A stretch of 32,668 nucleotides of DNA, taken from positions 1 through 32,668 of IMG/VR virus record IMGVR_UViG_3300034200_000329; one strand, written 5' to 3'. Within the stretch, counting starts at the first letter, position 1. Every line of letters starts with the position of its first letter. This document shows, one piece after another, positions 1 to 32,668 of this stretch. This DNA comes from a virus. The translations under genes were made by a program, and so were the position numbers. Under the pieces are notes generated by a model. That model had not been told where the DNA came from. It made no database searches and saw only the letters and a program-made list of their open reading frames with translations.

Positions 1-127
1 ATAGGATTGTCATAGGATGAGAAATGAAAGTAAGCATATCTATCATCATAGTTAGGCTGCATGCATAATCTATGGAAATGATTCTTGCCCTTTGGTGTTG
101 ATATAAATATAACCTTCTTTCCTTTTA
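1..127. repeat. Terminal direct repeat, copy 1 (circular closure overlap)
   Basis: Bases 1-127 are identical to 32542-32668. The repeat lies inside the large terminase gene, and joining the two ends there restores one uninterrupted reading frame across the junction. A 127-bp exact overlap is a common assembler k-mer length, so this is best read as an assembly overlap of a circular or circularly permuted genome, not a biological terminal repeat. Confidence 0.95.
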
Positions 128-16900: not shown

Positions 16901-18871
16901 TTATCGTTTTACAACTAATTGTTGAATCCATTCATGCCGGCACCATGGTGTTGACGCTTGAGTATCTGGATTGGTATACCATCCTCCTCTATATCTCCAC
17001 ACATCTCTGTATGGTGTTAACCTATTAGAGATAGCATTAATCTCATCCCTGGTGTAAAGTCTATTAAGGTCCATTAATCTCTCACAGAATTGTCTTGAGC
17101 CACTCTTTGCTGGAGGGACATCAAGTCTTGTTCTGTATCCGTATCTCACCTCAAATCTTTCTATTGGAATCTGCTCCTCTCTCACAAGTTGAGTTCCTAG
17201 CTCAGTGACTTGTCCTTTTGTGATGACCTCCCATTTCATGAGTCTTGCCATTGACTTGGCAATATCCTCAATGTTGGTGTTCAGAGCTGTTGCAATAGCA
17301 TTGCTATCCTCACCATCTCCAATCATCTTAAGTACATTCTTGTCAAAGTCATTGAGCTCTGCTGATATCTCTGCTATTGTTGCGAATAATTGGTCTTGCT
17401 TTGTGAATACCTCAGCTGATGGTGTATCCCATGCAATTGGAAATGTGGCAATCACCTCATAGTCATGAGCTGGCTCACCATATTGTGCAAAGTATCCTAT
17501 CTCATCATCTTGGTGTTCAAACTTGCATGAGCTCAATTGCTGTGCTCCTGGTTGCAATCCCACAATCCTTCTTGCTTGTGCCTCATCAATGGTTGGAAAT
17601 GATGCCAATACAATGCTCAATGCACTCTCGCTGGTCAATACTCCTTCCTTAATCTTGGCAACCACATCAATAAGTGATGCAATCTGTGCTCCGTTTAATG
17701 CACTCTTAGCAACATCAACTGGAGCCTCTGCTGTTGGTTGGTCAGTTGCTGTTGGTTGTGCTGCCACTGGTGCAACTTCAGCTGTTCCAATTGGTTTAAC
17801 ATCTCTTAACCTCACAACACCAACATCTCCAGAGAGTCTGACCATTTCATTTAATATCCACTCAAGTCTCTTCTGTCTTGTATCAACATAAGTTGTCTTG
17901 AATATCTCAAATAAATCAGCACTTTCAGCTGCATTGAATGAGCCTTCTGGAGCCACACCAAACAAAGATGGAGCAACAACTGAATGAGCCACAAGAATGT
18001 TCTGTTGAACGCTTGACTCAAGAGATTCATATCTCTTATCAAGATCATTGCCATTTAAATTATCAACTTTTGGAGCTTGATCTGCTGTCTCAGCAAAAGT
18101 GATTATAATATCTCCAGCATTCTCAATGCTTGATGCTGGTCCTTTGATTTGATTCTTGTATGCCTCTGCCTCCTCTTGTGTCTCTGGGAAACCATTGACA
18201 AATGTGATCATAGTTCCTGACTTGAATCCACTCTGCAATTCATACATGTGGAATTTACTGATGTCAACATCTGTCTGGATTGCTGTGATTCCTCCTTGAT
18301 ATGGAGGCTTTGGATATACTCCATGTTCTTTACGACCCTTCTTAGCTGGATCCTTGTAATACAATACAAATGATCCTGTCTTATTGGCCTCATCAAGAGC
18401 TGGCAATGTTCTTAGATTTGTTTTCTCAGCTGATTGCTGTTGCATTGTCCAGTCATCAGAAAGATAGTACATTCTTTCATCAGATGAGATTCTGATTGCA
18501 TCAATGGCAAGATACTCCCACACAGCAACTCTGGTCCCTTCTCTGTTCCAGGTACCCTTAATAGCGAATGCTCCGAATAATTCATAATCAAATGCCAATT
18601 GTTCAACAATCTCATTCATGTTGAAATCAGAATAAGGATTGGCAATGAATCTTGCAAGCTCACCAGATACAACCTCAATACCTCCTCCAGCAATGTAGTG
18701 AGTCTTATTCTTTATTATACCTTGGTGCCAGGCTGATCCATTATAGAGATCCACCAAAAAGTATGGATAGTCATTCTTTTTTCCCCATTTAATAAAGCCA
18801 AGCATTCTGTCTTGCTCCTCAATTGGCAAGACAAAGTCCTTTCTGAATGACATTGATTCAAATTTATTCAT
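16901..18871 (-). CDS. Portal protein with C-terminal extension
   Basis: A 656-residue protein. Residues about 1-375 match phage portals of Bacteroidota siphophages: KTHYIAGGGIEV, YELFGAFAIKG, QNILVAHSVVAPSLFGVAPEG, then a helical stem EIFKTTYVDTRQKRLEWILNEM. The portal forms the ring at the capsid vertex through which DNA passes. The remaining 280 residues are unusual: an Ala/Pro/Thr linker, a helical part, a winged-helix-like segment (NVLKMIGDGEDSNAIATALN), and an end with SRQFCERL, RGGWYTNP and CRHEW that resembles the Cys/His C-terminus of MuF-type minor head proteins. It may be a portal and minor head protein in one chain. Its start overlaps the upstream gene by eight bases. Confidence 0.82.
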   Translation of the reverse strand: MNKFESMSFRKDFVLPIEEQDRMLGFIKWGKKNDYPYFLVDLYNGSAWHQGIIKNKTHYIAGGGIEVVSGELARFIANPYSDFNMNEIVEQLAFDYELFGAFAIKGTWNREGTRVAVWEYLAIDAIRISSDERMYYLSDDWTMQQQSAEKTNLRTLPALDEANKTGSFVLYYKDPAKKGRKEHGVYPKPPYQGGITAIQTDVDISKFHMYELQSGFKSGTMITFVNGFPETQEEAEAYKNQIKGPASSIENAGDIIITFAETADQAPKVDNLNGNDLDKRYESLESSVQQNILVAHSVVAPSLFGVAPEGSFNAAESADLFEIFKTTYVDTRQKRLEWILNEMVRLSGDVGVVRLRDVKPIGTAEVAPVAAQPTATDQPTAEAPVDVAKSALNGAQIASLIDVVAKIKEGVLTSESALSIVLASFPTIDEAQARRIVGLQPGAQQLSSCKFEHQDDEIGYFAQYGEPAHDYEVIATFPIAWDTPSAEVFTKQDQLFATIAEISAELNDFDKNVLKMIGDGEDSNAIATALNTNIEDIAKSMARLMKWEVITKGQVTELGTQLVREEQIPIERFEVRYGYRTRLDVPPAKSGSRQFCERLMDLNRLYTRDEINAISNRLTPYRDVWRYRGGWYTNPDTQASTPWCRHEWIQQLVVKR

Positions 18872-22678: not shown

Positions 22679-22686
22679 TAAATTTG
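22679..22686 (+). promoter_or_regulatory. Putative -7 box of the only plus-strand gene
   Basis: TAAATTTG on the plus strand matches TAnnTTTG exactly and ends six bases before the ATG at 22693, so a start site about seven bases downstream would make a leaderless or nearly leaderless mRNA. No good -33 element is 19 bases upstream. It lies in the 24-bp gap between the protease start and this gene. Confidence 0.45.
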
Positions 22687-22692
22687 TTCGAA

Positions 22693-23340
22693 ATGATATT
22701 TGTTTATCCATACCACAGCAGAGCTGAGTCTGACTTTGAAATCAAGCAATCAATTGCAATGGTCCTCAAAGTTTTTCCTGATGCTGAGATATGGACAGTT
22801 GGTAAGGCTGTGTCTGGTATCAACAACATTCCTTGCACTCAACACAACAACATCAGAGGATGTGATGTGACCAACAGAATGCTCACCTTTGCCAAACAGA
22901 TTGGAGGAGATTTCATCTATATGAATAAGGATTTCTTTATCAGTAAGTCATGGCAGCCTCATGTAGCCATTAAGATGGGACCAATCATCATCAATGATGA
23001 CCATCCACCACATACCAAGGTTGCTCAATGCAATACTCTTGAATTTTTAAAGCATAATAACTTCACAGCTCATAATTATGAGACACACACTCCATGTTTA
23101 ATGAACAGCAAAAAGTTGATTGATCTCTTTGACAATATCAACTGGCAGAATGACAACCATTTCATCAAGTCAATCTATTGTAATGTGTATCAAGTTCCTT
23201 CCAAGGATGGATTCAATTGCAAGGTATCTGTGCCATCTATTGCCAAGGCTCAAGAATTGATTCTGCTCCAGGGATGTTTCTCAACTGGTGATGCTTTCTG
23301 GAATAAGACTTGTGTTGACTGGATTAAAAGCTTGACTTAG
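22693..23340 (+). CDS. Stealth-like sugar-phosphate transferase, antisense to the rest of the genome
   Basis: A 215-residue protein and the only plus-strand gene. It resembles the Stealth family of capsule hexose-1-phosphate transferases in a short phage form: GGDFIYMNKDFFISK (about 72-87) matches the Stealth CR2 region (normally YxNDDxF), followed by a conserved HNYETHTPCLMNSKKLIDLF (about 132-152) with NHFIKSIYCN. I take the ATG at 22693, where MIFVYPYHSRAESDFEIK begins the fold; a TTG nine bases upstream is less likely. It fills the gap between tape measure and protease, overlapping the tape-measure stop by 17 bases. CpG-poor composition like its neighbours suggests long residence. It could alter surface glycans together with the 1019-3925 module. 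Confidence 0.68.
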   Translation: MIFVYPYHSRAESDFEIKQSIAMVLKVFPDAEIWTVGKAVSGINNIPCTQHNNIRGCDVTNRMLTFAKQIGGDFIYMNKDFFISKSWQPHVAIKMGPIIINDDHPPHTKVAQCNTLEFLKHNNFTAHNYETHTPCLMNSKKLIDLFDNINWQNDNHFIKSIYCNVYQVPSKDGFNCKVSVPSIAKAQELILLQGCFSTGDAFWNKTCVDWIKSLT

Positions 23341-25969
23341 CCTCTTGTACTTGTACTTTGTTCTGAGTATTGGTGATGTCAGACTCCAATACAACAACCT
23401 GTGATGTCATTGTCTGACCTTGTTGCCCTTGACCAAGTTGTGTCAAGTCAGTTGTCTGAGTATTGGTATTGGCTTGGAATGAACTTGCTCCAGCTCCACT
23501 CAATGAACTTCCTTCTCCAGATGATAGCTGTGGTGGTGTTGGTGCAGAGCCAGCTTGATACTTCTGATTCATGATGGCCATTGCCTGTGTGATACCAATC
23601 AAGGATGCTGATGCAATGGCAGCAATACCAGCTGGTGATGGAGGAGGACCAAACTGAGCAATCCCTTTCACAATTGCTGATGCTGTGTCAATTCCAACCT
23701 GTGCTAATCTTAGAGCTTTCTCTCTTGCAAATTGTGCCTTCTTAATTTTCTCCTCTTCATTGAATGCCTTGAGTTGAACTTGATACTTTTGTTGTGCAAA
23801 TTTCTCCTCAATCTTTTTTCTCTGATCAGCTGTCAATCCTTCTTGATTCAACTGAGCTTGCATATTGGCATCAAGATTTGCAAGATCATCTTCTCTATTC
23901 TTAGCTATGCTGTTAAGTCTTGCTTGGTCAATCTGATTGACAAGTTCATTAACTTTCTTGAGCTCATCCAATCCTCTCTGAGTTCCCTCAATTGCATCTG
24001 TTACTCCCTTGAGAGATTCTTCTCTTGCCTTAACTTCATTTGCTTTGGTTTGCTCATCATACTTCTTATCAATATCAGCTTTCTTCTTTCTGAAATCCTC
24101 TCTAAGTTTCAATTGATAGTCAACGTATTGCTCCTCATCTATGTTGCCATTCTTTAAGTTCTCAGAGTTAATCTTCTCTTGCTCCTTGTACCACTCATCC
24201 AAATCAAGCAATTCATTCTCTTGATCAGAATTCAAGTATCTCTGCCACTTATTCCTTAACTCTCTCTTCTTAGCCTCTGCCTCTGCAATCTTATCAAGCT
24301 CCTCCTTAGTATACTTATTGACAATGGCAATCCTTTCTGCTGCCTCCTGTTCATCAATCTGTCTCAATAGCTCTGCATTGTTATGAGCTTCATCTCTCAT
24401 CTTATCATACTTGATGGTTGACTGCAATAGCTCTTTCTCTTGACCTTCCTTCATCAAGTCCAGACTCAATTGGAATTGGTCATCCTCAGCTTTGATTCTG
24501 TCCTCATTTGCTTTGCGTTCAATCTCAGCCAATCTCTCAGCCTCTTTCTTGGCTGCCTCTCTTCTCTTCTCAGCTCTGGCTTTTGCTTTATCAGCTCTCT
24601 CCTTAGCTGCATCCTCCTCAGCTTTTGTCTCCTCAATTCTCAATACATCAAGATCATCCTTTAACTTTTTATTTTCTTTGTACTGATCATTGCTGTTTTG
24701 CTTGACCTCTTTTAATGTCTTCTCTAATTGCTTAGCTCTGTCACTATCAGCATCACCTGTTGCTTTCAACAACTTAATCTCATCCTCATAGGCTGCAATT
24801 TTTCTCTTTTGCATTTCAAGGATTGCTCTTCCAGATTTTAATGCAGCAACAAGTTTTTTCTCCTCCATCTCCTCTGTGTTCTTTCCAGCAGCTTGTGCCT
24901 TCCTTATCTCAAGAGCATATGCATCATCAACAGCTTTTGCTTTCTTTTTTTCTGCTGATATCTTCTTATTCATTTCCTTCTCAGTTGCATCAGTCTTGGC
25001 TTTTGCATTAGCCTTCATCTTGGCTGTCTGTTCATCATCCACAACTCCAAAGTATTCAAGAGCTTTAATTACTCCATAAATAACACCAATGAATGGAAAC
25101 ATTATACTGATTACAAGTTTAACTCCTGGTCCAAGTTTATTAAACCAATTATAAGCCTTCATCACAGCCTCAGATACCTTGTCAAAGTTGGTAATCAATA
25201 AACCTATTGCAACCACAATGGCTCCAATACCTGTGGCAATCAATGCCAATCTGAACAACTTCATTGCTGTGGTTGATGCTGTTGTCGCTGTTGCAAGACC
25301 TACATTCGCACCAGCCTGAGCTGTTGTTGCTGCTGTGTTTGCCAATGCTGGTGCAATGGAGCCAGTCAAGATAAAGTTCTTAGCTTTCTCAAGACCATTT
25401 CTAATTTGAATGCCAAGGATTGCCTCCTTATTCAAGTTATTAGAAACAATACTCACAGCATTGACCAATCCCTGAACAGCTTGCAACTTGACCATTGTTT
25501 CTGTCAATGCCTCAGACTCAACTCCAGTCAATGCAACCGCTGATTGTATTCCTTGAAAGGCTGCTGCTCCAGTCTCAATTCCACTTAGTGTGGTATCAAG
25601 GCCAACAAAGTCTGATGACAAGGCTGTTGTCTGTGCCTTTAAATCTCCAATCTCATCCTTTAATCCAGCTGCATTCCTAATGGCTTGCTGTCCAATTGGA
25701 GTCTCAGCTCCAGCTGCCGCAGCAATGTTCTGGTATTCCTTCATTGTCCTGGTCATCTCCCTCATGGTGAGACCACCAGCCTCAACTCTGGCATTCAGTT
25801 CCTGGAGCTTTTGGTCAAAGGTATCTATGCCAGTATTATCTGCTGCTGTTTTTTGTGTTGCCTTGAGATCTTGATTCAAGTCATTGACAGCTGCATCCAT
25901 AGCTTGGATGTCCTGAACACTGTTACCAGTGTTGACCTTCAGTGAGAATACAACTGACTTCTCTGCCAT
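23324..25969 (-). CDS. Tape measure protein
   Basis: An 881-residue tail-length ruler. It starts with an SLKVNTGNSVQDIQAM strand-helix, continues as a long helix region, has hydrophobic segments (about 237-260 RLALIATGIGAIVVAIGLLI and about 283-303 LVISIMFPFIGVIYGVI) for entry into the host membrane, then about 400 residues of Lys/Glu/Ala coiled coil and a Gln/Ser/Thr-rich tail. At about 0.15 nm per residue this predicts a tail near 130 nm, typical of a siphovirus. Its gene is coupled to the 79-residue gene (TAATG). Uniquely here it is upstream of the head genes in transcription order. Confidence 0.88.
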   Translation of the reverse strand: MAEKSVVFSLKVNTGNSVQDIQAMDAAVNDLNQDLKATQKTAADNTGIDTFDQKLQELNARVEAGGLTMREMTRTMKEYQNIAAAAGAETPIGQQAIRNAAGLKDEIGDLKAQTTALSSDFVGLDTTLSGIETGAAAFQGIQSAVALTGVESEALTETMVKLQAVQGLVNAVSIVSNNLNKEAILGIQIRNGLEKAKNFILTGSIAPALANTAATTAQAGANVGLATATTASTTAMKLFRLALIATGIGAIVVAIGLLITNFDKVSEAVMKAYNWFNKLGPGVKLVISIMFPFIGVIYGVIKALEYFGVVDDEQTAKMKANAKAKTDATEKEMNKKISAEKKKAKAVDDAYALEIRKAQAAGKNTEEMEEKKLVAALKSGRAILEMQKRKIAAYEDEIKLLKATGDADSDRAKQLEKTLKEVKQNSNDQYKENKKLKDDLDVLRIEETKAEEDAAKERADKAKARAEKRREAAKKEAERLAEIERKANEDRIKAEDDQFQLSLDLMKEGQEKELLQSTIKYDKMRDEAHNNAELLRQIDEQEAAERIAIVNKYTKEELDKIAEAEAKKRELRNKWQRYLNSDQENELLDLDEWYKEQEKINSENLKNGNIDEEQYVDYQLKLREDFRKKKADIDKKYDEQTKANEVKAREESLKGVTDAIEGTQRGLDELKKVNELVNQIDQARLNSIAKNREDDLANLDANMQAQLNQEGLTADQRKKIEEKFAQQKYQVQLKAFNEEEKIKKAQFAREKALRLAQVGIDTASAIVKGIAQFGPPPSPAGIAAIASASLIGITQAMAIMNQKYQAGSAPTPPQLSSGEGSSLSGAGASSFQANTNTQTTDLTQLGQGQQGQTMTSQVVVLESDITNTQNKVQVQEAKSSF

Positions 25970-26208
25970 TAGTTATTTACTTCGTATTTTGGAAGCTCAA
26001 CATTGTTAACCCAATCAATGATATCTTGATCTGACCAATCAGATGTATATGTGTATCCTGGAAAGTCAACACCAAAGATTGTGGATGCAGTTGTGAGCAA
26101 GACATTTGCTGTACATACTTTATTGATTATGTCATCAACAACTGTTGTGACTGTCACTGTTGGATTAATGATCTCAACATTGAACTGAGGAAATTTATAA
26201 GTTGCCAT
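25969..26208 (-). CDS. 79-residue tail-region protein, unknown
   Basis: The product starts with strands (TYKFPQFNVEIINPTVTVTTVVDD) and ends in an acidic helix (SDWSDQDIIDWVNNVELPKY). It lies between the DUF1566-like gene and the tape measure, so it may be a small tail-tip part. The stop overlaps the tape measure ATG. It is not a recognisable tail chaperone. Confidence 0.6.
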   Translation of the reverse strand: MATYKFPQFNVEIINPTVTVTTVVDDIINKVCTANVLLTTASTIFGVDFPGYTYTSDWSDQDIIDWVNNVELPKYEVNN

Positions 26209-26209
26209 A

Positions 26210-26836
26210 TTATGATAGTGTTGTTCCTGTTACGGTGAATGTTCTTACTCTGAAATAAGTATATGATGTTGATGTTGTCTTTGCTACTACAGTTATAGCA
26301 CCAATATTATTCAAAACATATGCTTGTGTTGTTGCAGCAAGATTTGTAGTTGAACTCCAGTATACTCTTCCCGATGAAGATAAATTGAAAGGTGAATAAT
26401 TCAATATATTATTTTGGTCATTAGCAAAGTTCATAAGATTCATTATCTCCTTAATATTTGCCAACCTCCATCCACTTGTGAAAGTTGCAACTGAATATGA
26501 AAGTGAATTATCAACAGCTTGATTCCAAGTGTTACCAGTTGCAATTGCTACTCTTGAAATACCTAAGACAGTTGAGCCGTCATAAGTACTCCAATCAATG
26601 ACAATGTTATTGGTGTAAGTAGTTCCACCTAACTCATCAGTAAATCTATTGGTATTACCAAAAGGATTGTTACTTGCTAATGTTGTGAATGATGTAGCTC
26701 TACCAGCCTCAAGGTCACCATCATCACCAGTTCGATAAGATGTTGTCTGACCTGTTTTCATCAATGTTGCTCCAACAGGAGCTGGTGTGGGAGCTGCACC
26801 ACCTCCACCGATTTTAAAATTTAATGCACTTATCAT
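26210..26836 (-). CDS. DUF1566/Lcl-domain protein, receptor-binding candidate
   Basis: A 208-residue protein with an N-terminal GGGG/Pro-Ala linker (about 9-22) after a short strand, which looks like a flexible tether, and a C-terminal DUF1566-type domain: GNTWNQAVDNSLSYSV, SGWRLANIKEIMNLMNF, RVYWSSTTNLAATTQAYVL and FRVRTFTV. This fold is related to the C-type lectin-like fold used for cell-surface binding. It may be the tail-tip adhesin. No reverse transcriptase or template repeat was seen, so it is not a visible diversity-generating target. Confidence 0.7.
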   Translation of the reverse strand: MISALNFKIGGGGAAPTPAPVGATLMKTGQTTSYRTGDDGDLEAGRATSFTTLASNNPFGNTNRFTDELGGTTYTNNIVIDWSTYDGSTVLGISRVAIATGNTWNQAVDNSLSYSVATFTSGWRLANIKEIMNLMNFANDQNNILNYSPFNLSSSGRVYWSSTTNLAATTQAYVLNNIGAITVVAKTTSTSYTYFRVRTFTVTGTTLS

Positions 26837-27099
26837 ATTACTAATATAACAGATCCAGATGTTAATTGAACTGAACTGAATTTGAATCCATTCAATGGTC
26901 TTATGATTGCTCCAGCTTTTACTGCTGTCGATGAGTCTTGAATATATGTATCTTTCACCTCATTGCCTCTCACTTGAATAGATTCAAATATTGTATCCTC
27001 AAGAGCAACAATTGCATCACATAATAATTCCACTGCATCTGTTCCGTTAACTATGAATGTACCTTGTGCTGCTGATAGCACGCTTTGTGAATTTGCCAT
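26833..27099 (-). CDS. 88-residue small structural protein
   Basis: The product has strands GTFIVNGTDAV, ESIQVRGNEVKD and a C-terminal SVQLTSGSVILVI; compact and beta-rich, with a short acidic helix (LLCDAIVALEDTIF). Overlaps the DUF1566-like gene by four bases. It sits between the tail hub and the adhesin candidate, so it may be a small tail-tip part. Family unknown. Confidence 0.6.
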   Translation of the reverse strand: MANSQSVLSAAQGTFIVNGTDAVELLCDAIVALEDTIFESIQVRGNEVKDTYIQDSSTAVKAGAIIRPLNGFKFSSVQLTSGSVILVI

Positions 27100-27111
27100 T
27101 TTATATGTTTT

Positions 27112-29397
27112 TTATGGTGGTGTAACTATGGTGGTCTGAATACCCTCTCCCTCTATTATGCGAATCAGTTCGACAACTGTTGATGTATTCTTGCCACTCT
27201 GATAGTCACTAACTTTGAGCAACCTATACACAACACCATCAATATTAATTAAGTTTCTGAAATCAAGACTATTGATGTCTGATGGTCTCAGCATCACTGA
27301 GCATGTCACCTTCTTTCCAAATCTTGAAATCAATTCCTTAATGAACTTCTCATGATACAGATACAAGTTGTTGGTTGGATATGTTGATGTGGACCAAAAC
27401 ACATAGTCAGGCACACCAAAGTTGAAATCAAAGGATGGTGAATCCAAGTTGTCCAAGTGACCAACATAAGGATATGATGTCTCATTGAATGGTGTTCCAT
27501 TCTCATCCACATGAATCCAGTCTCCTGTCCTCAATCCTCCCAATTGCACAAGGAATGGCTTTCCTTTCTTTCTTTCAACCAAGCTTGAGCCATCCTCATT
27601 GAACTTAATCTGGAATGCTCTTGGAACAGTTAAGTCAGTGAATGTTGATGGTGATGTATCTGGAATGGTTGACAATACCTTCTGGCTGAATGGCAGCTTG
27701 AAATTGGTTTCATTGGTTGCAAATTGACTTTGACTCTCCACAATAAATGATCCATATTGTTCCTGAACATCATCAAAATAACGACCATTCCAATAGTCAT
27801 CATCTGTCTCAAAATTAAACTTATAATTCTTAGCACTGAAATTGATCGTTGGCTCAATCTGTATCTCTTTACTTCTGTCAATCTTATAAGTCCAATCAAT
27901 TGCATCACCACTGGCATTGTAAAAATCACTCAATGGCTCTATCTCAAGAATGGTTGGATCCGATGTCCTTGGCTTGACATATAAGTTAAACGCTGTGACA
28001 AGTCCTTTGAAGAACACATCACAAGTCATGTCTGGAAGGAATGCACCAAGAGATACTGTGCCTCCAGCTGTCAATGTTTGTGCTTGCTTTAAGATATCCA
28101 ACTCAGCTGTGTTGCTCACAATCTGTGTCCTCAATCCATTCAGTCCAGCAGTCCCTCCGATTAATTGTGGAGTCAAGATAATGTATCTGACTTCAAATGA
28201 TAAGGTATCATTAATCAATAAGTTTATCTGTCTTGAATAGTCAAAATTAAAGCTCTCAGTATGTCCAGTTGCTTGACCATTCAATGCTCCAGAATAAATT
28301 GTGTCAAATGATATCAGAATGTTGTTCTTATACACAAGCAACTCAAGTCTGTAACTGCCATACATCAATGAAGCAGATTGAGTATCTGTGAAAGTCAAGT
28401 CATGATCACCATAATAATGAACATTAAACAATCCAGAGGATGCAGCCACAAACAATAAAGGTGATGAGCTTTGAGCTTGATTCAAGTTGTCTTGAGTCAC
28501 TGTAACCTCCATGATGTCCACAGAGTTTAAGCTGTTTAAAAACCATATAGCACTATTGCCATAACTATAACCAGATACATTGGTATTGATGATTGTGCCA
28601 GCTCCGACATTGTTATTCTCTGTTGAAAACAAACTATCATTATCAGCCTGAACTTGTGTGATGGTTGGCAAGTCTCCTCCAGGATATGCCATCAGCATCC
28701 TCTTGAATCTTTGGCTCTCAAGGAATCTACTGCTCCATGAGATACCACAATAGTTGAAAGCTTTTGTCAATATATCATAGCAGAATACCTGAGGAGGAAT
28801 CTGCTCAACTGCAAAGGTGGAAGGAGTAGCACGCGTGAACCCGTAATCAATCAAGCCGTAGTAATACCCTTTACCCTTCCATCCTTGCGAGTCTTGGTTG
28901 CTGACAGGAGCTCCATTGAATTGTACTATCCCCGCCCATGTATCTTGTTGGTTGTCATATGTCAATGCATGGTCATACTCTGAATATCCAAGCTCATTGA
29001 CCTTAATCTTTGTAAGTCTTGAGATGTAGTCAATCGTATCACTTACAAGAGTTATGTCAAAGGACCATACTCCATCATTGAGCTTGCAGTTCATTAACTG
29101 AGCAACACCATTGAACTCAAGCAATCCATTCTGATAGTATTGACATTCTGCCTTGATGCTTGGATCAAAGTCAATGAAATCACTATCTGTATTGCTGATC
29201 TTATCTGTTGCACTCAAAGTGTATACACTCAGCATCAGTGATGTGTTATTCTTTGTTCCTGGCAATGTGATGGTCTTGGACTTATTGCCCTTCCTTGCAT
29301 TCAAGTCCTTGATGTCACTGATATTGAATGTCAATGGAAAGGGAGCATCTTGACTGATGTCAACAAGCCTCCCATTAATGAATAATTCTCCAGCCAT
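27112..29397 (-). CDS. Tail hub / Tal-like tail tip protein
   Basis: A 761-residue protein beginning MAGELFINGRLVDIS and FPLTFNISDIKDLNARKGNKSKTITLPGT, an opening widely conserved in tail-tip proteins of Bacteroidota siphophages. A beta-rich first 150 residues is followed by a long region with FCYDILTKAFNYCGISW, and the end holds VTCSVMLRPSDINSLDFRNLINIDGVVYRLLKVSDYQSG, similar to hub proteins of contractile and Tal-type tails. It probably forms the central tip that touches the cell. TAATG coupling to the 404-residue gene. A local CpG-rich patch sits at 28830-28935. Confidence 0.7.
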   Translation of the reverse strand: MAGELFINGRLVDISQDAPFPLTFNISDIKDLNARKGNKSKTITLPGTKNNTSLMLSVYTLSATDKISNTDSDFIDFDPSIKAECQYYQNGLLEFNGVAQLMNCKLNDGVWSFDITLVSDTIDYISRLTKIKVNELGYSEYDHALTYDNQQDTWAGIVQFNGAPVSNQDSQGWKGKGYYYGLIDYGFTRATPSTFAVEQIPPQVFCYDILTKAFNYCGISWSSRFLESQRFKRMLMAYPGGDLPTITQVQADNDSLFSTENNNVGAGTIINTNVSGYSYGNSAIWFLNSLNSVDIMEVTVTQDNLNQAQSSSPLLFVAASSGLFNVHYYGDHDLTFTDTQSASLMYGSYRLELLVYKNNILISFDTIYSGALNGQATGHTESFNFDYSRQINLLINDTLSFEVRYIILTPQLIGGTAGLNGLRTQIVSNTAELDILKQAQTLTAGGTVSLGAFLPDMTCDVFFKGLVTAFNLYVKPRTSDPTILEIEPLSDFYNASGDAIDWTYKIDRSKEIQIEPTINFSAKNYKFNFETDDDYWNGRYFDDVQEQYGSFIVESQSQFATNETNFKLPFSQKVLSTIPDTSPSTFTDLTVPRAFQIKFNEDGSSLVERKKGKPFLVQLGGLRTGDWIHVDENGTPFNETSYPYVGHLDNLDSPSFDFNFGVPDYVFWSTSTYPTNNLYLYHEKFIKELISRFGKKVTCSVMLRPSDINSLDFRNLINIDGVVYRLLKVSDYQSGKNTSTVVELIRIIEGEGIQTTIVTPP

Positions 29398-30611
29398 TAG
29401 TTAAGTTGTGATCTATATGTGTATGTTCTTTCCAATGTAATCTGCTCCTGTATCAAGCCATCTCTCCTCCTTGTCTTGAGCTGATAGCTTGTGTTGGTTA
29501 CTTTGACTGGCTCGAATGCTGTCCCATCCTCAACCTCAAGATAAACTGATGGTGATTCCATCAAGCTCCTTACCAGCCATTGTTGAACAGATTCATAAAT
29601 CCAGTCAGAATTCAAGACCAACTGATCTGCTGATGTCTTGGCAAAGTCAACCTTCTCACCTTGATAAAGTGGATATGTGTAGCTTGTATCATCCCAGACT
29701 CCTTTCTCTCTCTGATATCCATAGGATTGTACTGTGGATGAATCTGTTGAAACCAATGAGAATGTGAATGCATCCCAAACACCATACTTATTCAACCAAT
29801 GCAATCTCCTTGTCTCATATCTCTTGCACTCTCTGTCCATATAAACATTGAATGGCTCACCTCCTCCAGAATAACTTCCTCCAGATTGTGTGCCTCTGGG
29901 AGTCAATTCATAATAATAGCAATCATCAAAGTTAGCTTGTGTGATAGCTGTGTTGGCAATGATTGTCTGAGGAGATGCATCAACAACTGGGAATTGATTG
30001 GCTGAGAATGCCTCTGTGTGTGTGACTATAAGTGAGTTGTTTATATCATACAATCTGAATCTAACTTGAAAGAATCCAGGATCTCCATTTAAGATACCCA
30101 TAAACAACCTCTCATCATTTCCAACATATAGCTTTCTATCTCTTGGCCAGTCAGTCAACCATGTGACTCCACTCCCAGAATTCGGATTGTTGGATGATAC
30201 TGCATGATCTAACCAATCCCAATTAATAAAGTCCTGATGTCTTAATGCTGCATTGATAGCATATCTGGTTGAGCTTGTCTCACTATCATAAAGCTGTGGA
30301 TTTGGTGAGCCATACTTCTCATAAACAATAATGTAATAGTCATTGATGGCTGAATCATAGAAAGTCAACAATGAGCCATCCACAATCAATGGACTTGACA
30401 ATGTACTCTGAACAGCTTCAGATACATCTATCCTTCCAAGAGTATTGAATTGCCGATAAACCTCTTGAGTCAATCTCAAATTTCCGTTGATATAAACCTC
30501 AACAATAAAGCTGAAATTTGGTTGTGCAGTCTCATCACTGCTGAAAGTGAAAACCAATGGATTGCCAGCTGATGCAATCGGTTGTGGCTCATCATATAGT
30601 GTTATTGCCAT
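29397..30611 (-). CDS. Tail tip protein (distal tail candidate)
   Basis: A 404-residue strand-rich protein. The N-terminal half looks like an Ig-like/jelly-roll domain (NPLVFTFSSDETAQPNFSFIVEVYING, then RIDVSEAV), and the C-terminal half has CKRYETRRLHWLNKYGVWDAFTF and KTRRRDGLIQEQITLERTYTYRS. The first motif is conserved in Bacteroidota tail proteins. It precedes the hub gene and overlaps the HK97-gp10-like gene by 20 bases, which fits a distal-tail adaptor between tube and hub. I infer the role from place. Confidence 0.6.
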   Translation of the reverse strand: MAITLYDEPQPIASAGNPLVFTFSSDETAQPNFSFIVEVYINGNLRLTQEVYRQFNTLGRIDVSEAVQSTLSSPLIVDGSLLTFYDSAINDYYIIVYEKYGSPNPQLYDSETSSTRYAINAALRHQDFINWDWLDHAVSSNNPNSGSGVTWLTDWPRDRKLYVGNDERLFMGILNGDPGFFQVRFRLYDINNSLIVTHTEAFSANQFPVVDASPQTIIANTAITQANFDDCYYYELTPRGTQSGGSYSGGGEPFNVYMDRECKRYETRRLHWLNKYGVWDAFTFSLVSTDSSTVQSYGYQREKGVWDDTSYTYPLYQGEKVDFAKTSADQLVLNSDWIYESVQQWLVRSLMESPSVYLEVEDGTAFEPVKVTNTSYQLKTRRRDGLIQEQITLERTYTYRSQLN

Positions 30612-31116
30612 TTCTTGTAAAATTTATTTCAAATAATAAACCAGTGAGCTCTGCCAAGTCTCTGCCTATCCTCTCCAGAACACTATCATTGATGACATTC
30701 TCTGTGATTCTCTTTGGCTGCAATCCTCGTTGCTTAATGTTGGATGCCACAGCATAGGCATGACTCATGTCCAATCCCTTCCACTGACTTATGGCTGTTG
30801 CCATGTTGTGAGATACTCCAGGATAGTTGAATGAGAATTGACTCCCATAGTTGTTGGTCCCAACAGCATTAACCCCTTCATCAACAAATGGATAGTAATC
30901 ATCAGCCTCTAATCTGAATGACAGCTGTCCAGTTGGAACAGGAATGATTGACGCTGCCAATGCTCCTGTATTACTGGCAACCTTCTTGGTGTAATCTCTG
31001 AACTCCTCAGCAAGCTTGTTGGATAGCTCAATGATGAATCTGTCATAAGCATTCTTTGGTTGCTCAGCATCTTGAGCTGATATCCCAAAGTCATCAAGAA
31101 AATCAAACTCTGCCAT
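30592..31116 (-). CDS. HK97-gp10-like neck/tail protein
   Basis: A 174-residue protein resembling HK97 gp10-type proteins that complete the head-tail neck. The central YYPFVDEGVNAVGTNNYGSQFSFNYPG (about 74-100) matches the family's YPFVEfGT/G-type core, and helices lie on both sides. In many siphophages it sits between connectors and tail tube; here it is next to the chaperone-like gene and tail-tip genes, far from the connectors. Its ATG lies inside the end of the predicted -1 frame of the upstream gene, so translation may be coupled. Confidence 0.68.
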   Translation of the reverse strand: MAEFDFLDDFGISAQDAEQPKNAYDRFIIELSNKLAEEFRDYTKKVASNTGALAASIIPVPTGQLSFRLEADDYYPFVDEGVNAVGTNNYGSQFSFNYPGVSHNMATAISQWKGLDMSHAYAVASNIKQRGLQPKRITENVINDSVLERIGRDLAELTGLLFEINFTRNGNNTI

Positions 31117-31896
31117 TGCTTAATATGCGTTTTTGTTCGTTCTCATCCACTATCCTAAAATAGTTCATCCAGAACAATGTTGTCACATAAGGCTGTTGTG
31201 TAATTTTCGCCACACTGACTCCCATTTCTTTGGATAATCTATGTAAGATAGTTGTCCAACTAAACCACTCTGAATCTTTAAGTCCTGTTCCATCATCATC
31301 ATTTCCATCCTCTGTCTCGCCATCTGAATCCCTAATATAGCGAGCTTCCGCTTGTGAGATAAGTCCAAAAAAAAACTGAAGAAATTTAAGAACTCATCTC
31401 CAGGAAAATGTTCCTTGAATTCCTTGTATCTGTTGTCATTATCATTGAGCACTCTTCCTCTGTCATCCTCTTGGCAATACTCCATCCCTTTCTCAACATA
31501 CATGATTGCCAATGCTTGACATGGATCCTGGCTGATGTCCTCAATAAGCTTCAGGTCAATGATTTGACCAGTTGAGACATGAGCAAAGTTTTTCTCAAGG
31601 CAATATGTCTTGCCATTGATACTAATCTCTGGCTTTGGCTCTTGATACTTATAGGTCACCAATAGTTGCAGCATGTGATTGGCTGCCACTTGGATGGATT
31701 GTATATCTGCTCTCTTTATCTTGTTGATTGACTCCCCACTGAATAGACTGAGCAACTGACATTGGAAGATTAACAGCTGTGTGATGTCATCCTCCTTATG
31801 TGCCTTCATTGCCTCAGCCATCATGAGCCATCTGGTCATCTGGTCTGGTGTGCATGCACTGATGGTTGTTGGTAGTTTTATGTCAAGTTGTTTCAT
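31103..31896 (-). CDS. Predicted -1 frameshift fusion of the tail-chaperone-like gene
   Basis: A T_TTT_TTG heptamer (31372-31366) in a T9 run would let about 177 residues of the 0-frame product continue in the -1 frame from GGA at 31366 to TGA at 31103, adding 87 residues for a protein of about 264. The added part has an acidic linker (RDSDGETEDGNDDDG), then WFSWTTILHRLSKEMGVSVAKI and PYVTTLFWMNYFRIVDENEQKRIL, which reads like a real helical domain. It also covers the otherwise unexplained 66 bases (31117-31182) between this gene and the next. A 4-bp hairpin (AGCG/CGCT, 31352-31339) lies 13 bases after the slip site. Conserved -1 frameshifts of this kind are known in tail assembly chaperones (lambda G/GT). 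A sequencing error in the T9 run is the main alternative. Confidence 0.6.
31183..31896 (-). CDS. Tail assembly chaperone-like protein, unshifted product
   Basis: A 237-residue protein: an N-terminal helical domain (IKLPTTISACTPDQMTRWLMMAEAMKAHKED, then LLIFQCQLLSLFSG), a strand-containing middle (PEISINGKTYCLEKNFAHV), and a helix with DNRYKEFKEHFPGDEFLNFFSFFL just before the T9 slip site. After it the 0-frame gives a charged helix (RKLAILGIQMARQRMEMMMMEQ) and ends at 31183. The layout with a slip site near residue 177 resembles tail chaperones (lambda gpG), though its place right after TerL and not just before the tape measure is unusual. It overlaps TerL by four bases. Confidence 0.6.
   Translation of the reverse strand: MKQLDIKLPTTISACTPDQMTRWLMMAEAMKAHKEDDITQLLIFQCQLLSLFSGESINKIKRADIQSIQVAANHMLQLLVTYKYQEPKPEISINGKTYCLEKNFAHVSTGQIIDLKLIEDISQDPCQALAIMYVEKGMEYCQEDDRGRVLNDNDNRYKEFKEHFPGDEFLNFFSFFLDLSHKRKLAILGIQMARQRMEMMMMEQDLKIQSGLVGQLSYIDYPKKWESVWRKLHNSLM
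31366..31375 (-). promoter_or_regulatory. Candidate -1 ribosomal slippery site
   Basis: Nine consecutive T then G on the minus strand, read AGT TTT TTT TTG in the 0 frame (S174-L177). T_TTT_TTG fits the X_XXY_YYZ heptamer, so both ribosomal tRNAs can re-pair after slipping back one base. The same homopolymer could also cause polymerase slippage. Confidence 0.6.
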
Positions 31897-32668
31897 ACTC
31901 TCAAAGCCATGTATCTTCCTTTATTCGTGAATTCCTTTCTGCTGTTCCAAGCCAATGCAGTTGAGATGACTCCATCATCATGCAATCCAGCTGGTGCAGA
32001 ATAACTCACGTTCCTGGTATTCGGATTGTAAATATAGGAAAAATTATCAAGCTCATCCAACAACCATTGCTCATTGATAATTGAGATAGCTTTCTGCTCA
32101 AATGCAACAGCCAAGTCCTCAATGATGATTGGCTTTGTTTTGGAGCTTGTCACAAATGGATGTATCAAGTTCCGACATCTTGACTGGAGCATCTCAAAGA
32201 ACACATCACCTTGATTATTGACCTCAACCAATGTCACAGCATTGTATTGCTTAATCAACTCAGCAACCTTGTCAATGATCCTGGTCCATTCATCATGCCT
32301 CCATCTGTGAGCTGTGACCATCTGTCCATCTTGGTTGATGATAGTGAGCACAGTGTAGTCATCAGCTCGACCAATGTCAAGACCAGCGAACATCTTCTGA
32401 GTCTTGGATCCTGTGCCAATGCACTCATGAACATTCTTGAAGATACCACTGGCATTGTCAATGAACTCAGCTAAGTACTCCTGTCTGAATACATGGTCAG
32501 GTAGTGACCTCTTCCTTTCATCCAATTCTCTTGGGTCAATCATAGGATTGTCATAGGATGAGAAATGAAAGTAAGCATATCTATCATCATAGTTAGGCTG
32601 CATGCATAATCTATGGAAATGATTCTTGCCCTTTGGTGTTGATATAAATATAACCTTCTTTCCTTTTA
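31893..32668 (-). CDS. terL: Terminase large subunit, C-terminal part (nuclease domain; continues at the left end)
   Basis: The right-hand part of the split gene; reading enters from base 32668, and 32542-32668 duplicates 1-127. The nuclease domain is visible: GLDIGRADDYTVLTI, with the first acidic residues of an RNase H-like site, VTLVEVNNQG, with a further acidic residue, and LHDDGVISTALAW near the end. It would cut concatemeric DNA to headful or unit size. The stop overlaps the chaperone-like gene's ATG by four bases. Full protein 400 residues; see the N-terminal part for ATPase motifs. Confidence 0.92.
   Translation of the reverse strand, partial: KGKKVIFISTPKGKNHFHRLCMQPNYDDRYAYFHFSSYDNPMIDPRELDERKRSLPDHVFRQEYLAEFIDNASGIFKNVHECIGTGSKTQKMFAGLDIGRADDYTVLTIINQDGQMVTAHRWRHDEWTRIIDKVAELIKQYNAVTLVEVNNQGDVFFEMLQSRCRNLIHPFVTSSKTKPIIIEDLAVAFEQKAISIINEQWLLDELDNFSYIYNPNTRNVSYSAPAGLHDDGVISTALAWNSRKEFTNKGRYMALRV
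32542..32668. repeat. Terminal direct repeat, copy 2
   Basis: Identical to bases 1-127. Removing one copy gives a 32,541-bp circle with terL intact. Confidence 0.95.

Follow-up and report, generated by a model that had tools for sequence, protein, structure and literature searches.

Lambda G/GT and HK97 gp13/gp14 give a short product and a -1 extended product with a common N-terminus, the slip lying near the end of the first ORF, and the features of G/GT-like tail assembly chaperones have been described (PMC5009743). Two products can also be set by a U or A homopolymer, as in Shigella mxiE and Thermus dnaX (nine A in Thermus dnaX; PMC1088944), and in a large share of bacterial genomes A/T runs prone to slippage are visibly selected against once they reach nine (Baranov et al., 2005, PMC1088944). 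The phage gene analysed here shares the first arrangement with the lambda and HK97 genes and the homopolymer with mxiE and dnaX, which are unrelated genes in which slippage has been experimentally shown, whereas here it is predicted from sequence. Unlike the lambda and HK97 chaperones, to which it has no detectable sequence homology, it carries nine Ts (T9) instead of a mixed heptamer, its 0-frame continues for 61 codons past the slip as a tail under selection, and it adjoins terL, with six genes between it and the tape measure. We consider it probable that this is a two-product gene slipping at T9 and that the pair works like lambda gpG/gpGT.

The window, that is, the whole stretch of 32,668 nucleotides analysed (IMG/VR record IMGVR_UViG_3300034200_000329), contains the following features:

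31893-32668, minus strand: terL, the C-terminal part in this record (PHROG terminase large subunit; the record ends overlap)
31183-31896, minus strand: slip gene, ORF of the 0-frame short product (237 aa; G-like)
31367-31375, minus strand: T9 slip site, 0-frame AGT TTT TTT TTG, invariant in 126 distinct family A sequences
31106-31369, minus strand: -1 frame extension of 88 codons (T-like), with its stop at 31103-31105
31183-31366, minus strand: overlap of the 0-frame and the -1 frame, with substitution rates indicating purifying selection in both
30592-31116, minus strand: next gene, tail completion/HK97 gp10-like (blastp E 0.001 to P12024S gp42)
23324-25969, minus strand: candidate tape measure protein (blastp E 5e-13 to P12024S gp49)

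The 0-frame at the slip site reads AGT TTT TTT TTG GAC, the first T of the run being the end of the AGT codon; the plus strand reads A9, and a heptamer T TTT TTT is contained in the run at 31375-31369 on the minus strand. The -1 reading consists of an acidic linker followed by a conserved EWFxWTxIxxxLSKEMG...QPYVxTLFWMNY domain, covers the otherwise empty 31117-31182 and stops 13 nt into the next gene (ATG at 31116), with a predicted length of 264 aa for the spliced product. An earlier note on this DNA had pointed out the run with its 0-frame TTT TTT TTG, the -1 frame through the empty stretch into the next gene, and a long product of about 264 residues beside the 237-residue one, and all three were recovered here. 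The T9 by itself is unremarkable, since about 0.9 A/T runs of nine or longer are expected in the window under a first-order Markov model.

The slip gene adjoins terL, which it overlaps by ATGA, and not the tape measure gene as lambda/HK97-type G/GT does. Six genes, not the seven counted earlier, separate it from the tape measure (30592-31116, 29397-30611, 27112-29397, 26833-27099, 26210-26836 and 25969-26208). The assignments of the next gene and of the tape measure candidate rely on the P12024S proteins, gp42 matching PHROG tail completion/Neck1 at E 4e-4 and gp49 matching PHROG tape measure at E 2e-4. Regarding the record as a whole, window positions 1-127 and 32542-32668 map onto overlapping stretches of another contig (L002), and this overlap of the record ends implies a 127-bp terminal repeat; the record would then be complete, mapping as a circle of about 32.54 kb, and terL, whose 5' part is at the window start, would be intact across the junction. 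The genome is minus-strand except for a 218-aa plus-strand ORF (22684-23340) lying between the genes for the head protease and the tape measure.

To delimit the family around the window we used IMG/VR searches with the 0-frame protein and terL as queries and one GTDB scan, which yielded 126 distinct sequences (family A; 14 clusters at 80%, 46-100% identity to the window). All 126 carry exactly nine Ts in an identical codon phase, [AGT/GGT/GCT] TTT TTT TT[G/A], with the -1 frame open at the slip site throughout, and the 0-frame product keeps a length of 236-237 aa in close relatives. The 126 loci (946 kb) hold 125 sense-strand T9 runs, all at the slip site, and A9 otherwise occurs only twice. 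The two Phe codons immediately ahead of the run are mostly TTC, and 52% of upstream Phe codons are TTC in this family; on naive figures that ignore relatedness, the chance of two TTT codons in all 14 clusters is 1e-9, and that of a T ending the preceding codon in the 14 clusters is 3e-7.

Substitution patterns change frame at the run. Column variability peaks at 0-frame position 3 upstream and at -1-frame position 3 past the 0-frame stop, the overlap showing both patterns; dN/dS is 0.095 in the 0-frame upstream of the run and 0.10 in the -1 frame downstream. Nearest-pair rates in the overlap, classed as silent (S) or non-silent (N) in each frame, are 0.286 for SS, 0.048 for SN, 0.044 for NS and 0.016 for NN. 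As these rates are constrained in each frame, selection acts on the -1 extension as well as on the 61-aa 0-frame tail, which argues that the 237-aa and the 264-aa products both matter. Conservation and selection on both frames thus correspond to two products from one start, as in the lambda/HK97 type, and the comparative analysis establishes, at the level of sequence, the shift, the slip site and the selection on both products. The homologue alignment and the per-frame comparison of silent and non-silent changes proposed earlier therefore come out in favour of the programmed shift: the T-run and both frames are conserved across the 126 sequences, with purifying selection in both frames of the overlap, and no relative was found with eight Ts or with a closed -1 frame. 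Together with the frame-switching substitutions and the collinear single-ORF homologues described below, the invariant T9 and the conserved -1 frame strongly support it.

A second group of sequences was reached through the portal protein, by way of Nonlabens phage P12024S. The window portal (16901-18871, minus strand, 656 aa) has a long C-terminal extension whose residues 513-566 match the winged-helix PF24409 wHTH-PRTase_assc at E 1.4e-4, under the curated cutoff, and the P12024S portal is similar to it within that extension. The structural module is collinear between the window and P12024S, with matches for the protease, the MCP, the portal, the 404/474-aa and 761/754-aa proteins and the tape measure. 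Directly after terL, P12024S carries gp38, with T9 in ATA CTT TTT TTT TAT and the annotated gp39 in the -1 frame; the two (Inhavirus; phrog_32199/phrog_38404) are annotated as two hypothetical genes. They belong with the window gene by profile similarity over both halves, fold, slip position and gene order, and differ from it in a T9 shifted by one base relative to the codons and in having about 12% identity. Further scans gave 210 sequences of this type (family B; 25-99% identity to gp38). The cultured phages P12024S and P12024L both show the T9 arrangement, and the cultured frameshifting members infect a flavobacterium. In family B the position after terL is common: of the 190 loci whose upstream sequence reaches 1 kb or more, 80 have a terL match ending within 200 nt, a count that divergent terL genes may escape. 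The gene position, which the earlier note called unusual for tail chaperones, is no peculiarity of this genome, the terL-side position recurring across the family and in P12024S. Other genes occupy the place after terL in Tenacibaculum phage Larrie, Olleya phage Harreka_1, Riemerella phage RAP44 and Bacteroides phage BS-TP2. Two family B loci (L464 and L465) have an additional T9 close to the start of that ORF (offset 34).

Profile comparison of spliced A with spliced B gave 97.3% in hhalign (E 2e-11, 230 columns spanning the junction), and, independently, an AF2 model of the window 0-frame protein (pLDDT 76) matched P12024S gp38 (E 8.6e-7) and Flavobacterium phage 6H gp10 (E 5e-5) in Foldseek. 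Family B in turn matches a set of single-ORF proteins (97.9%, E 4e-13) from Flavobacterium phages 2A and laban6-1, Cellulophaga phage Ingeline_1, Polaribacter phage Leef_1 and a Microcystis phage. Since the direct match of A to this set (31%, E 5e-4) and that of the -1 half alone between A and B (E 0.0065) are weak, the link from A to the single-ORF proteins runs via B and the full-length comparison. PHROGs groups the single-ORF proteins as one unknown family. The phrog_25418 proteins (2A gp12, laban6-1 gp17, Ingeline_1 gp05) align collinearly with the spliced product through family B, and their genes sit a few places ahead of the tape measure; unlike the slip gene's products, they are encoded by one uninterrupted ORF with at most T6 at the equivalent site. 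The long form alone is expected from such genes, and a G:GT ratio would therefore not be universal in the wider family. The 6H locus was rejected as a programmed site, gp10 and the ORF behind it together resembling a broken form of 2A gp12, which is itself intact: 6H gp10 (L292, 10352-10927) is a frame-disrupted single-ORF long form relative to 2A gp12 (L363, 3001-3882), annotated as a shorter hypothetical protein.

We propose that most transcripts and ribosomes would yield the 237-aa protein, while a fraction would slip at T9, through an extra U in the mRNA or a ribosome moving back one base, and continue in the -1 frame. The slip would give a 264-aa protein in which the first 176 residues are common and the 61-aa tail is replaced by the acidic linker and the conserved helical domain. 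The pair may act like lambda gpG/gpGT, a chaperone in two lengths, encoded here immediately behind terL, where the tail operon begins.

The level at which the slip would occur was approached through run length and codon phase in families A and B combined (336 sequences, about 300 of them distinct, 75 clusters at 80%). The run is nine Ts long in 321 of the 336 and ten in the remaining 15, never shorter, and it is found in all three codon phases, the Ts ending the codon before the two Phe codons (FF) and starting the codon after them being 1+2, 2+1, 3+0, 2+2 or 3+1. T10 is confined to family B, where it arises by substitution beside the run and keeps the frame relation. When flanking T counts were shuffled between clusters, a mean of 14.9 of the 75 clusters fell below nine, and zero was reached in none of 20000 shuffles. 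The run state changes at least nine times on the tree, and both T10 kinds able to bridge phases occur.

This pattern, with a length of nine or more conserved and a free phase, is that of transcriptional-slippage genes, a mechanism that the earlier note did not raise and that the data match no less well than slippage of the ribosome. RNA polymerase would add one U, the U10 message giving the long product by normal translation, and U8 mRNAs would end early, since the +1 frame closes 1-20 codons after the run. Nine is also where selection against A/T runs prone to slippage begins to show in many bacteria (PMC1088944), and RNA structure is not needed for such slippage. No conserved RNA structure was found 3' of the run: folding of 14 downstream regions from each of the two families gave a mean z close to 0, and RNAalifold yielded only four pairs, with no compensatory change. 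We lean slightly to transcriptional slippage because run length, and not codon phase, is kept, and regard it as having a little better than an even chance; against it, a phased heptamer is always there as well.

That heptamer is what classical -1 ribosomal frameshifting would require, tandem slippage of two tRNA-Phe at T TTT TTT giving the long product as in lambda G/GT, with no transcript heterogeneity. It is present in correct phase in every sequence, -1 is the standard direction, and the mechanism is used by known tail chaperones (PMC5009743). A heptamer needs seven Ts, however, and seven or eight were never found; the codons flanking FF trade Ts while the total stays at nine or more, a pattern that is clustered on the phylogeny and to which amino-acid constraint could contribute. 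In the commonest arrangement (phase-1) the eighth T occupies the heptamer's free Z position, where a change would be silent in either frame, and is nevertheless T without exception (naive chance 2e-7 over 41 clusters). The lack of a stimulatory structure also counts against the ribosome. Since each T9 holds a phased T TTT TTT and the flanking codons are protein-constrained, ribosomal slippage is nearly as likely as transcriptional slippage, although we place it somewhat under an even chance. The more specific view that this is a widespread undescribed tail-chaperone-like family, in which the two products come from transcriptional slippage and the run is held at nine or more Ts while drifting through three phases with T10 as possible intermediates, falls just short of even. 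If the transcriptional reading is true, it would be, to our knowledge, the first large family of phage morphogenesis genes whose products are set by slippage of RNA polymerase and not by the ribosome.

As for function, a G/GT-like tail assembly chaperone is our best guess, since a gene of the tail operon would give two slippage products, the longer one carrying an acidic linker and, at its C-terminus, a short helical domain; homology to known chaperones is at most suggestive. The T-like part resembles HK97 gp14 in a helical-domain pattern, L-x3-MG-x-[ST]-[LV] ... W-[IM]-x-Y, noted visually and scoring no higher than the top decoys, and neither HK97 nor lambda G/T gave a sequence similarity above decoys. 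No Pfam or PHROG match was obtained for the slip gene, and nothing firm from Pfam/PHROG over all members of alignments A3, A4 and A6. Phage_TAC_7 matched at E 0.04 in 4 of 37, and phrog_166 'tail protein' matched weakly in 4 of the 9 family B members of alignment A6 (best E 0.006), which could bridge to a known chaperone family. Among structural comparisons, VIA-align placed the HK97 tail assembly chaperone 2ob9 second (Z 3.0, 66 residues), tied with unrelated folds, and Foldseek returned an E of 0.37 for a BFVD entry named tail assembly chaperone and no match in the PDB with E below 1. PDB sequence matches to choline-binding-type repeats, covering one beta-hairpin, were discarded as spurious. 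The AF2 model of the -1 domain alone was poor (pLDDT 62), and its fold matches were set aside for that reason. The tail-chaperone-like character proposed in the earlier note is plausible rather than proven, and the gene is properly said to work like G/GT, not to belong to that homologous family.

The two-product gene could instead be a head-tail connector or other morphogenesis factor, as would fit its place between terL and a neck/tail-completion gene, the weak structural resemblance to a chaperone and the existence of single-ORF homologues. Two slippage products with an acidic linker and a short helical domain are a tail chaperone hallmark, though, and no alternative chaperone candidate ahead of the tape measure was found among the window ORFs, which makes this assignment rather unlikely.

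A separate small gene with its own start in the -1 frame, as P12024S gp39 is annotated, is highly improbable: conservation begins at the run, single-ORF homologues span both parts, and 122 of 123 family A sequences have no ATG, GTG or TTG in the -1 frame ahead of the conserved EWFxW. A -1-frame stop immediately abuts T9 in 29 sequences, so that with no -1 start entry to the domain has to come from the 0-frame, no earlier than the first T. Sequencing or assembly error, to which homopolymers are prone, or a decayed gene is less credible still, T9 being present in about 300 distinct assemblies and two cultured phages.

No report of the slip gene was found among the open-licence titles and abstracts listed on transcriptional slippage and phage tail proteins, on chaperone frameshifts of Bacteroidota phages and on P12024S, nor a description in the catalogues searched. 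The analysis suggests a function for an unannotated gene after terL in hundreds of environmental phages, and if the chaperone assignment is true, the rule that such genes lie just before the tape measure would not be general. The nine-T floor over three phases makes the question of ribosome versus polymerase directly testable in cultured P12024S, and the single-ORF relatives provide a natural comparison for the purpose of the short form.
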